A stretch of 64,000 nucleotides of DNA from contig NZ_LMDB01000038.1 of assembly GCF_001425005.1 (NCBI RefSeq), positions 76,978 through 140,977 of the forward strand, given 5' to 3'. The notes under the pieces were generated by a model. The model saw nothing but the letters and a program-made list of their open reading frames with translations. It was not told where the DNA came from and searched no databases. Origin of the DNA: Duganella sp. Root336D2. Lineage in GTDB: Bacteria; Pseudomonadota; Gammaproteobacteria; Burkholderiales; Burkholderiaceae_D. Within the stretch, counting starts at the first letter, position 1, and the number at the start of each line of letters is the position of its first letter. Positions 33,701 to 59,083 of the stretch are shown here, piece by piece. A program made the position numbers and the translations under genes.

Positions 33701-34719
33701 CGCAGCGCCTGGGGCATGAAGTGTTCAAGACCGTCGCGCGCAAGCAGGCCAAGGCACCGCCGCCTACGGTCGGCAAACCGGCCGTGCGCGAGCAGGTGAT
33801 TCACTTCGTGAACAAGAAAATGCCGGGCAACCTGCCGAAGAAGACGGCGCGGGCGCTGCTGGACATCGAAGACAACAAGATGATCCCGATCATTCGCGAT
33901 CCGAAGAAGACCAATGCCAATAGCGAGGCCGTGTTCTACTTCCCGGGCTGCGGGTCGGAGCGGCTGTTCTCCCAGGTCGGCCTGGCCACGCAAGCCATGC
34001 TGTGGGATGTGGGGGTACAGACCGTGCTGCCGCCGGGCTACCTGTGCTGCGGCTATCCACAGCGCGGTGCAGGCGATTACGACAAGGCGGAGAAAATGGT
34101 GACGGACAATCGTGTCCTGTTCCACCGCATGGCAAATACGCTGAACTACCTGGATATCAAGACTGTGGTGGTGTCTTGCGGTACCTGCTACGACCAGTTG
34201 GCTGGCTACGAGTTCGAAAAAATCTTCCCTGGCTGCCGCATCATGGACATCCACGAGTACCTGCTGGAGAAGAACGTCAAGCTGGAAGGCGTGACCGGCA
34301 CCCGCTACATGTATCACGATCCGTGCCACTCGCCGATGAAGATGCAGGATCCGCTGAAGACGGTGAACGCGCTGGTGTCCACGGTCGACAATGTGAAGAT
34401 CGAAAAGAACGATCGCTGCTGCGGCGAGTCCGGCACGCTGGCTGCCGCCCGTCCGGATATTTCGACGCAGGTGCGCTTCCGCAAGGAACAGGAGATGGTG
34501 GCCGGCGCCGACAAGCTGCGCCAGGATTTCGATGGCGACGTGAAGATCCTGACCAGCTGTCCGGCATGCCTGCAAGGCCTGACCCGCTATAACGACGATT
34601 CCGGTACCACTGCCGACTACATCGTGGTCGAAATGGCCAAGCACAAGCTGGGCGACAACTGGCTGGTGGATTACGTGGCGCGCGCCAATGACGGCGGCAT
34701 CGAAAGGGTGCTGGTATGA
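30712..34719 (+). CDS. DUF3683-FAD oxidase-[4Fe-4S]-CCG fusion oxidoreductase
   Basis: A 1335-residue protein from ATG 30712. In order: a DUF3683 N-terminal domain (about 1-165); an FAD-binding PCMH domain ([12 protein letters not shown] near 222, [13 protein letters not shown] near 295); a D-lactate/glycolate-type oxidase C-terminal domain ([12 protein letters not shown] near 741, [10 protein letters not shown] near 785); two 4Fe-4S motifs ([11 protein letters not shown] near 866, [13 protein letters not shown] near 929); and two CCG heterodisulfide-reductase-type domains (FPGCG near 1075, then [12 protein letters not shown] near 1203 and CCGESGTL near 1236). It resembles GlcD plus GlcF fused in one chain and probably oxidises a 2-hydroxyacid. 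The substrate is unknown. The stop overlaps the HIT gene. Confidence 0.92.
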
Positions 34720-38509: not shown

Positions 38510-40065
38510 TCCGCAAATTCCTCAGGCTGTTCAAGATCGTCCGTGTCTCCGTCCGTTACGGGCTGGACGAAATCGCCATTTCCGGCTTCGACAAGCCGCG
38601 CATCAGCAAATTCCTCGACATCGTTTTCTTCTGGCGCGACCTGTCGACGCCGCGCGCCGTGCGCCTGCGCCGCGCACTGGAGGAGCTGGGCCCGATCTTC
38701 GTCAAGTTCGGCCAGGTGCTGTCGACCCGCAGCGACCTGTTCCCGCTCGATATCGTGTCCGAGCTGTCCAAGCTGCAGGACCGTGTGCCGCCGTTCGATT
38801 CCGACCTGGCGATTGCGATGATCGAAGCGTCGCTGGGCGCCCATCCTGACGAATTGTTCGCGCGCTTCGAGCGCGTGCCGGTAGCTTCAGCCTCCATCGC
38901 CCAGGTGCACTTCGCTGCGCTGAAGGATGGCACGCAGGTGGCGGTGAAAGTGCTGCGTCCGGGCATGAAGAAACTGATCGACGAAGACGTCGCGCTGATG
39001 CATATCGCGGCCAACTTCATCAACCGGCTGTGGGCCGATTCCAAGCGCCTGAAGATCCAGGAAGTGGTGCAGGAATTCGACAAGTACCTGCATGATGAAC
39101 TGGACCTGATGCGCGAGGCGGCCAATGCCAGCCAGCTGCGCCGCAATTTCGCCGAATCCAAGCTGCTGCTGGTGCCGGAGATGTATTGGGACTATTGCTC
39201 CAGCAACGTGATCGTGATGGAGCGCATGTACGGCATTCCGGTGTCGCAGATCGGACGCCTGGCCGAGGCCGGCGTGGACCTGAAAAAGCTGTCCTCGGAT
39301 GGCGTGGAGATCTTCTTCACGCAGGTGTTCCGCGATGGCTTCTTCCACGCCGATATGCATCCGGGGAATATCCTGGTGTCGATCGAGCCTGAATCGTTTG
39401 GCCGCTACATCGCGCTGGACTTCGGCATCGTCGGCACGTTGAACGATTACGACAAGGATTACCTGTCGCAGAACTTCCTGGCCTTCTTCCGCCGCGACTA
39501 CAAGCGCGTGGCGGAGGCGCATATCGAATCCGGCTGGGCGCCGAAAGAAACCCGTGTCGATGAACTGGAAGCCGCGGTGCGCGCTTGCTGCGAGCCGATC
39601 TTCGACCGTCCGCTGAAGGATATCTCGTTCGGCCAGGTGCTGCTGCGCCTGTTCCAGACCTCGCGCCGCTTCAATGTGGAAGTGCAGCCGCAACTGGTGC
39701 TGCTGCAAAAGACGCTGCTGAATATTGAAGGCCTGGGCCGCCAGCTCGATCCTGACCTGGATTTGTGGAAGACGGCCAAACCTTACCTGGAGCGCTGGAT
39801 GGCGGAGCAGGTGGGCTGGCGCGGGCTGGTGGATCGCTTGAAGGCGGAAGCACCGCGCTATTCGCATATCTTCCCGCAATTGCCGCGCCTGGCGCACCAG
39901 GCGCTCACCGTCGCGGCGGAGCGGGATGTGGAAACCAAAGCTTTGCTGGCGCACCTGGTGGCGGAGCAGCGCCATACCAACCGCTTGCTGTCGTTCTTTG
40001 CGTTCTTTGTCGGGTCGTTTGTGGTGGGTGCGGTGGCGTTTGTGGCGTATGCCCGACTTCACTAA
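38506..40065 (+). CDS. ubiB: Ubiquinone biosynthesis atypical kinase/ATPase UbiB
   Basis: The 519-residue ABC1/ADCK-family protein has the KxGQ-type [15 protein letters not shown], Ala-rich loop [10 protein letters not shown], the Lys in VAVKVLRPG, EVDLxxE-like [20 protein letters not shown] and [10 protein letters not shown]. Its C-terminal hydrophobic anchor is [19 protein letters not shown]. UbiB is an ATPase needed for ubiquinone synthesis. The length is typical. The 3' end overlaps the next methyltransferase start by 17 bases. Confidence 0.97.
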
Positions 40066-40687
40066 CCGCGATCCGCGCACGGCGGAGTTTTGGGACCAGC
40101 GGTTTGAGGCGGCGTTTACTCCCTGGGATCGGGGCGGGGTGCCGGAGCAGCTCTCCGCCTGGCTGCAAACCGGTGGCCCGGTGTCTGGCCCACAGGGTCA
40201 GACACCGGGCCACCGGTTTTCGGTGTTGATCCCCGGCTGCGGCAGCGGCTACGAGCTGCAAGCCTTCTGCCAGGCCGGCTGGAACGCCACCGCCATCGAC
40301 TTTTCCCCCTCCGCCGTTGTTGCGGCGCAACAAGCGCTGGGCCCCTGGCGCGAGCACGTGCTCGAGGCAGATTTTTTCGCTTACGCGCCGCAGCAGCCGC
40401 TGGACCTGGTCTACGAGCGCGCCTTCCTGTGCGCCATGCCGCGCGACATGTGGCCGCGCGTGGTGCAGCGCTGGGCGCAATTGTTGCCGGAAGGGGGCCT
40501 GCTGCTGGGCTACTTTTTCTTCGATGGCAATCCAAAAGGCCCGCCCTTCGGCGCCGAGCGCGAGCAGCTGGCGCAGTTAATGAGTGCTCACTTTGATCTC
40601 GAGCAGGACGCGCCGGTAAGCGATTCCATCCCGGTATTCCAGGGCAAGGAGCGCTGGATGGCCTGGCGCCGGAAAAAAGCTTTATAA
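40049..40687 (+). CDS. TPMT-family SAM methyltransferase with an in-frame palindromic repeat
   Basis: ATG 40049 gives a 212-residue product ([19 protein letters not shown]). This start matches TPMT-type methyltransferases, followed by [35 protein letters not shown] (SAM motif), [23 protein letters not shown] and [13 protein letters not shown]. Between the first two motifs lies a stretch encoded by a 53-base palindrome (40167-40219), giving [19 protein letters not shown], which looks like an insertion that kept the frame. The acceptor substrate is unknown. It overlaps the ubiB 3' end. Confidence 0.87.
40167..40219. repeat. 21-bp-arm palindrome inside the TPMT gene (GGTGTCTG-family repeat)
   Basis: Arms 40167-40187 and 40199-40219 are perfectly complementary over 21 bases, with an 11-base centre. 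The inner part GGTGTCTGGCCC..GGGTCAGACACC matches the intergenic repeat at 59023-59049. It can fold into a very stable hairpin in the mRNA of the coding sequence. Confidence 0.88.
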
Positions 40688-40720
40688 TTCAGGGTTTTGA
40701 TGTTTTTTGCGGAGTAATCG

Positions 40721-41002
40721 ATGCCTATCTACGCTTACCGCTGCGAGGAATGTGGCTTTGCCAAGGATGTGCTGCAAAAGATCTCCGATCCGCAGCTCAC
40801 GGATTGCCCTTCCTGCGGCAAGTCCACCTTTAAGAAGCAACTGACCGCGGCCGGCTTCCAACTCAAGGGCACCGGCTGGTACGTAACCGATTTCCGTGGC
40901 GGCACCGCCCCGGCAACCGGCGTTGCCAGCACGGCCAAATCCGAAGCCCCGGCAGCCGCCGCCCCGGCGCCTGCGCCGGCAAAGTCCACCAGCGAGGCGT
41001 AA
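40721..41002 (+). CDS. FmdB-family zinc-ribbon protein
   Basis: The 93-residue protein begins MPIYAYRCEECGFAKDVLQK and has a second CPSCGK pair, forming the FmdB/CxxC-CxxC zinc ribbon (about 1-45). It ends in an Ala/Pro-rich tail. Such regulators or adaptors are common beside DUF502 and aspS in betaproteobacteria. A TTTGCGGAG ribosome-binding site precedes the start. The precise role is unknown. Confidence 0.9.
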   Translation: MPIYAYRCEECGFAKDVLQKISDPQLTDCPSCGKSTFKKQLTAAGFQLKGTGWYVTDFRGGTAPATGVASTAKSEAPAAAAPAPAPAKSTSEA

Positions 41003-41023
41003 TTCCCCCGCACAAGGAACACG

Positions 41024-41602
41024 ATGCGTAAATATTTCATTACCGGCTTGCTGGTCCTGGTACCGTTGTCGATCACGGCCTGGGTGCTGCACCTGGTGAT
41101 CTCCACCATGGACCAGTCGCTGTTGCTGATCCCGGAGAAATGGCTGCCGGATGACCGTCGCCCATCGGGCCTTGGCACTATCCTGACCGTGGCGATCGTA
41201 TTCCTGACCGGCCTGCTGACCAATAACCTGGTCGGCAATTTCATGATCCGCCAATGGGAAAAGCTGCTGCATCGCATTCCTGTGGTCAGCTCACTGTACG
41301 GCAGCGTGAAGCAGGTTTCGGACACCTTGTTCTCCGAATCCGGCAATGCTTTCCGCAAGGCGGTGCTGGTGCAATATCCGCATGCCGGCTCGCGCACGAT
41401 CGGTTTCCTGACCGGCGCGCCGGCGACCGAAGTGCAGAAGCACCTGGACGGTGAATACATCAGCGTCTACGTGCCAACCACGCCGAACCCGACTTCCGGC
41501 TTCTTTTTGATGTTGCCGAAAAAAGATGTAATCGAGCTCGACATGAGCGTCGATGCCGCACTGAAGTACATCGTTTCGATGGGCGTTGTCGTCCCTGAAT
41601 AA
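41024..41602 (+). CDS. DUF502 inner-membrane protein
   Basis: The 192-residue protein has two membrane helices ([19 protein letters not shown], about 3-25, and [20 protein letters not shown], about 48-68). A conserved cytoplasmic or periplasmic domain follows, with [44 protein letters not shown] and [15 protein letters not shown]. This matches DUF502, a widespread family without an assigned biochemical function. It lies between fmdB and aspS. Confidence 0.93.
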
Positions 41603-59022: not shown

Positions 59023-59049
59023 GGTGTCTGACCCTGCGGGTCTGACACC
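59023..59049. repeat. GGTGTCTG-family palindrome in the hydratase leader
   Basis: GGTGTCTGACCC (59023-59034) and GGGTCTGACACC (59038-59049) form a hairpin with one internal mismatch and a 3-base loop. It matches the inner part of the repeat at 40167-40219 and is followed by GGTTTACCGG. It sits between the thiolase terminator and the downstream ribosome-binding site. Confidence 0.8.
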
Positions 59050-59083
59050 GGTTTACCGGTTCAAAGAACGGAGACAAACGAAA

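Follow-up and report, generated by a model that had tools for sequence, protein, structure and literature searches.

A REP/REPIN-type palindrome read in frame within a TPMT-type methyltransferase gene of Duganella sp. Root336D2, and its probable history in one clade

INTRODUCTION

How does a conserved enzyme gene come to be translated straight through a DNA palindrome, and is the resulting peptide of any use to the protein? The question is raised by a 64,000-nucleotide stretch of the Duganella sp. Root336D2 genome (here called the window), in which a sequence-only reading had described a palindrome with perfect 21-bp arms inside a TPMT-like methyltransferase gene and had proposed that a dispersed element had entered it in frame and been retained as coding sequence, possibly a case of repeat-derived protein evolution. 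According to our analysis, the most probable account (about 0.8) is that a REP/REPIN-type element, probably moved by a RAYT-type transposase, entered the gene in the ancestor of a clade and has since formed a tolerated loop that is reshaped at the DNA level.

RESULTS AND DISCUSSION

The methyltransferase gene and its palindrome

The gene lies at 40049..40687 on the forward strand and encodes a halide/thiol-methyltransferase-like protein of 212 amino acids, whose frame is uninterrupted through the palindrome. The protein matches the Pfam TPMT profile PF05724 with an E value of 8.2e-30 and 104.5 bits, above the curated cut-off of 26, and the halogen methyltransferase of Paraburkholderia xenovorans (8ajp) is its first match both by fold (TM 0.89 of the query) and by sequence profile (E 1.5e-77), which makes it the nearest solved structure. 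Profile and fold thus agree in placing the protein in the TPMT-type family to which it had been assigned from sequence.

The palindrome of 53 bp (40167..40219) consists of a single REP core, GGTGTCTGGCCC-ACA-GGGTCAGACACC (40180..40206), with a head on each side, the left one (40167..40179) reading AAACCGGTGGCCC here and AAACCGGTAAACC in the consensus of its family, and the right one (40207..40219), inverted, reading GGGCCACCGGTTT. Its 25-nt arms, 40167-40191 and 40195-40219, are separated by a 3-nt loop and are complementary at 24 of 25 positions; the outer 21 pairs are all perfect, as originally described. When at most one mismatch is allowed, the best palindrome of the gene has 24 Watson-Crick pairs; 200 codon shuffles of the same gene averaged 7.9 and never exceeded 13. 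The REP-derived or variable-loop segment takes up codons 40 to 59 (40166..40225, forward strand).

In the AlphaFold model, residues 41 to 57 form a loop between a helix (33-40) and a strand (58-62), with a mean pLDDT of 51 for residues 41 to 50 and of 72 for residues 51 to 60; this low-confidence loop agrees with the expectation that structure prediction would place the segment in a surface loop.

The REP family in the host genome and its relatives

The palindrome belongs to an abundant REP/REPIN-like family, whose consensus, read by eye, is the head AAACCGGTAAACC followed by a core, either GGTGTCNGACCC or GGGTCNGACCC, the latter being of the type that we call GGGTC. By eye, the head consensus carries neither a GTAG nor a CGTC tag at the element end. 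The match that had been noticed at 59023-59049 is a real second copy (59023..59062, reverse strand), in which the core is followed by an inverted head at 59050-59062; it lies between coding stretches, and its reverse complement differs from the core within the gene at 3 of 27 positions.

Many further copies were found when the host genome (6.58 Mb, 39 contigs) was searched, as had been proposed. BLAST with the 86-bp region returned 31 placements at E<=0.001, counting both strands and the gene's own, and 10 exact paired GGTGTC-type cores were detected by a pattern that misses the slightly changed core of the methyltransferase gene itself. GGGTCNGACCC occurs at 151 sites, against 6 for a reversed-pattern control, and GGTGTC-type arms at 31, against 3. 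Across the seven clade genomes the GGTGTC-type arms number 4 to 133 (controls 1 to 5), the metagenome-assembled genome (MAG) G056 not exceeding its control (4 versus 2), and across six genomes outside the clade they number 0 to 3 (controls 4 to 9). The GGGTC type is present at 13 to 340 sites across these 13 genomes (controls 5 to 11), its lowest count, in G041, being hardly over the control (13 versus 8).

The family has two features of REPs and REPINs: it is a short palindrome with many copies per genome, and it forms inverted pairs, seen in the tyrA genes of three species (see below) and, in the DNA retrieved, as doublets whose cores are 21-23 nt apart, 11 such cases being counted for 129 core elements. 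An automatic rule, which also catches some spacers, assigned one head to 105 of these elements, none to 12 and two to another 12, the two-headed ones including the methyltransferase copies of the host and of Duganella sp. Root1480D1 and the tyrA copies of the host and of Pseudoduganella violaceinigra.

Of 68 REP clusters retrieved from the host, an unannotated subset of all loci, 27 are spanned by some open frame, and most of these frames were dropped by eye as antisense or intergenic. By the same inspection, three clusters lie inside conserved genes, namely the methyltransferase gene, tyrA and soxA, and two more coincide with the C-terminus of a RAYT gene and with the start of a soxX-like gene. 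The last of these (L084 1502-1525; contig C39 of the host, about 34354-34377) may supply the first residues of a signal peptide, the start codon being uncertain. Single 11- to 12-mer matches in long genes (L162, L163, L165 and L168) were discarded as chance.

Association with RAYT-type genes

RAYT-type genes (PF01797) were identified in all 13 genomes, and also in 5 of 14 control genomes. REPs of this family stand on both sides of such a gene in Duganella sp. CF458 (L047), the host (L048), Massilia eburnea (L049, where one of the two is a single arm) and P. violaceinigra (L053), and on one side in Root1480D1 (L065); L051, L052, L057 and L060 show either single matches or one-sided REPs, and the other 21 of 30 loci retrieved have no such REP nearby. 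RAYT genes flanked by the same REP are thus present in these genomes. The HUH motif was recognized in the proteins of L047, L048, L049, L052, L053 and L065, and was not found by script in those of L058 and L073. The RAYT-type transposase whose gene is flanked in this way probably mobilises the family, a reading against which the 21 REP-free loci speak.

Two further observations concern these loci. The C-terminus of the RAYT-type protein of L048 (KTGKPGSDPRVRPD; 1449-2106 of the locus, contig C12 of the host, about 753468-754125) is contributed by the flanking REP, translated in the reading frame also used in the methyltransferase and tyrA genes, and L047 and L049 look alike. Moreover, an HFH motif occurs in the RAYT-type proteins beside GGTGTC-type REPs (L053, L065) versus HVH in those beside GGGTC-type REPs (L047, L048, L049), a pattern of five loci that is broken by L052, which has HVH beside a single GGTGTC-type arm.

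Distribution and history of the insert

The methyltransferase protein has a match in all 74 genomes of the genus, that in G060 being weak only (E 4.6e-5). Thirty of the orthologous loci were read, all as protein and 11 as DNA, and a REP is in frame at the methyltransferase site in six of them, all from one clade: the host, Root1480D1, M. eburnea, P. violaceinigra, P. guangdongensis and the MAG. The insert is therefore common to six species and not special to the host, which extends the original description. The other 24 lack it, and their loops are unrelated to the REP-type peptide. For 42 of the remaining 44 loci, match spans of 588-618 nt, versus 636 nt in the host, suggest that no insert of this kind is present; the last two are the weak match of G060 and a split match in G013. 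The latter (G013:C1:3007383-3007972) falls into two overlapping pieces, as if frame-shifted.

A tree was computed from five genes of 18 genomes, with nucleotide and protein data. The insert-free CF458 is sister to the insert-bearing Root1480D1 (bootstrap 98 nucleotide, 94 protein) and the insert-bearing MAG is basal in the clade (88 and 90); the order of the host, M. eburnea and P. guangdongensis is left unsettled (23-57 and 29-47). Since the insert-free genome is nested inside the clade, one gain followed by one loss would be the simplest history. A single shared insertion is also favoured by the tail variant TGCCGG, which recurs in four of the six inserts (Root1480D1, M. eburnea, P. violaceinigra and the MAG) although its equivalent is rare among heads of the host, at 3 of 62 exact matches. 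The methyltransferase gene has an open frame in every clade species read.

Further coding sites in tyrA and soxA

The tyrA gene was identified as encoding prephenate dehydrogenase by its sequence and by its position between hisC-like and aroA-like genes, and was read at 30 loci from the 74 genomes. REPs are in frame at one site of tyrA in the host, P. violaceinigra, M. eburnea, Root1480D1 and P. guangdongensis, the last three carrying a whole REPIN of two cores and a spacer. The tyrA of CF458 holds a REP-end remnant only, that of the MAG has a short form which may be a remnant or an empty site, and no REP was visible in the other 23 loci. The model of the host protein (mean 71, poor in the C-terminal part) places the insert between a strand (50-53) and a helix (71-75), the block means being 66 and 57.

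The third gene, which we take to be soxA from features of the family, has some match in 54 of 74 genomes and was read at 16 loci. A REP-derived segment lies between the signal peptide and the mature protein in the host, Root1480D1 and P. guangdongensis, much decayed in the last, and CF458 has a head only; the other 12 loci read have no such segment, and M. eburnea, P. violaceinigra and the MAG gave no match to the gene. The methyltransferase and tyrA copies are translated in a common reading frame (TGKPVSDPQGQTP and variants) and the soxA copy in the reverse orientation. The methyltransferase site is thus one of three such coding sites in the clade.

CF458 lacks REP cores at all three sites (L177, L271 and L013); its lineage may remove REPs more readily, and its genome is still rich in them.

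When the seven clade genomes were searched at the peptide level for further in-gene copies, 535 matches were obtained, about 150 of them listed, and 50 loci (30 plus 20) were examined with a codon-score filter, a survey from which the GGGTC-type copies of the relatives were left out. Among these 50 we saw only tyrA (host and P. guangdongensis), an apparent DNA methylase in the MAG, and one frame in Root1480D1 (L223) that was taken for spurious. In the methylase a GGTGTC-type REP is in frame near the C-terminus (L239 1514-1526, on G056:C149).

Selection and change at a fixed site

Outside the insert, the methyltransferase genes of the seven clade species (21 pairs) have dN of 0.07-0.15, dS of 0.40-0.67 and a ratio of 0.13-0.27, and are under purifying selection. 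Within the insert, the three species of equal length give dN and dS of 0.23/0.08, 0.35/0.20 and 0.21/0.07, so that dN exceeds dS over only 20 codons. As for the suggestion of repeat-derived protein evolution, the part that stands is an in-frame insertion that was kept; a useful new peptide finds no support in this pattern of substitution. The segment resembles a loop that the protein tolerates and that is rewritten at the DNA level, more than a peptide under selection; most likely it has no role and is neutral.

At the methyltransferase site the core is of GGTGTC type in the host and Root1480D1, of GGGTC type in P. violaceinigra, P. guangdongensis (two cores) and the MAG, and GTGCC-like in M. 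eburnea, with matching changes in both arms. The type embedded in a gene is not simply the commonest type of the genome, an idea that fails because P. guangdongensis and P. violaceinigra carry GGTGTC in tyrA and GGGTC in the methyltransferase gene.

The arms form 24 of 25 Watson-Crick pairs in the host, 20 in Root1480D1 and 17 in M. eburnea. Random arm changes were simulated, nine starting from Root1480D1 and fourteen from M. eburnea, and left means of 14.1 and 10.4 pairs, with none of 100,000 simulations from either start reaching 24, a difference for which decay in these living relatives, used as starts in place of ancestors, may account in part. Pair 10/46 is A-T in both relatives and G-C in the host, a change on both sides that suggests a process copying one arm from the other or replacing the element; the comparison as a whole points to such copying or replacement at this site. 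Template switching at quasi-palindromes is a known mechanism. We give about even odds to the broader proposal that in-gene REPs keep evolving as DNA elements and not as protein, with cores exchanged and arms re-matched in place across the clade, by conversion from other genomic REPs or by template switching at the hairpin. A mobile-element population would then repeatedly rewrite loops of conserved proteins.

Proposed origin and competing explanations

In the account that we favour, the palindrome is a REP/REPIN-type miniature element of a kind abundant in these Oxalobacteraceae (Pseudoduganella, Duganella, Massilia), probably mobilised by a RAYT-type transposase, and one such element would have entered the methyltransferase gene in the ancestor from which the clade descends. 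By eye, four of the consensus element's six reading frames are stop-free, and every insert has a length divisible by three; the gene could thus have survived with an extra flexible loop between a helix in the N-terminal part and the SAM-binding strand. This loop would be tolerated by the protein, and DNA-level processes would go on reshaping it: a two-core REPIN may have collapsed to a single core with two heads, one core type may have been exchanged for another, and the two arms may have been re-matched by template switching or conversion. The cores of a REPIN, each being palindromic, are also direct repeats of one another, and a deletion between them would leave one core and both heads; the two-headed solo elements counted above fit this collapse without proving it.

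The differing core types at one site could also mean that the methyltransferase, tyrA and soxA sites are insertion hot spots at which REPs arrived independently in different species, much as recB of two Xanthomonas species is reported to carry different REPs at about one site (PMC3733652). We regard such arrivals as unlikely, in view of the rare tail variant common to four of six inserts, the presence of a REP both in the basal MAG and in nested species, and the REP ends left behind in tyrA and soxA of CF458. Less likely still is that the palindrome is kept for a regulatory mRNA hairpin acting in ribosome stalling or RNase III cleavage. The predicted hairpin of the host is very strong (-59.7 kcal/mol, z -9.2), palindromy persists despite the change of core sequence, and the folds of Root1480D1 (-35.8 kcal/mol) and M. 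eburnea (-33.4 kcal/mol) were equalled by only 0 of 200 and 1 of 200 shuffles, respectively. However, strength varies by about 25 kcal/mol and the fold predicted for M. eburnea is a different one, which makes a regulatory role less likely; moreover, the CF458 orthologue has no palindrome, the same elements appear to lie mostly outside genes, and an Rfam search of 39500-41500 returned no match.

That the gene is a decaying pseudogene from which the insert has not yet been removed finds its sole support in the position of the insert near the active-site strand, and is very improbable given the open frame in all clade species read and the low dN/dS outside the insert. That GC-rich coding DNA produced the palindrome by chance, for which only base composition speaks, is refuted by the copy number of the element, and the codon shuffles fall far short of the pairing in the real gene.

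Relation to known elements

In-frame intragenic REPs are already known. Di Nocera et al. 2013 (PMC3733652) describe REPs within ORFs, as singles and dimers that add residues, and GTAG families associated with RAYT genes; the same paper refers to Rickettsia palindromic elements, which sit in frame within genes whose proteins are probably functional. Like these GTAG/CGTC REPs, the present elements are short palindromes, single or dimeric, inside ORFs, where they supply extra amino acids; unlike them, their consensus has no GTAG or CGTC tag. They also come from another bacterial family, since the main text of PMC3733652 contains no mention of Oxalobacter, Herbaspirillum or Burkholderia, and, compared with what that text covers, three coding sites are here followed through a clade. 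In-frame insertion in genes is likewise shared with the Rickettsia elements, selection having been measured here for the methyltransferase; the host is unrelated and we claim no membership of that group. Inverted REP pairs as a unit, and REPs adjoining RAYT genes, are features in common with the REPINs and RAYTs of Bertels and Rainey 2011 (PMC3116915), a study that deals with copies outside genes, in Pseudomonas fluorescens and other genomes, unlike the present copies inside genes. Perfect inverted repeats also occur in protein-coding genes of Nematomorpha mitochondrial genomes (PMC6649704), a resemblance limited to inverted repeats in coding genes: these are mitochondrial and are not known to be a RAYT-linked REP family.

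Titles and abstract openings, in a coverage that leaves most subscription journals outside, yielded nothing on this REP family or on in-gene REPs of Massilia or other Oxalobacteraceae. As far as these searches show, the untagged REP family, the three orthologous coding sites and the turnover of cores at a fixed coding site are new.

Intragenic REPs have been catalogued before, and their later history has rarely been traceable. Across about seven related species, the three coding sites offer a natural series, ranging from in-frame presence through change of core type and REPIN versus single core to absence or loss with a REP-end remnant. With this series two points become testable: whether a REP inside a gene has a function or is a loop that the protein tolerates, and whether recombination or replication slippage homogenises REPs in place.
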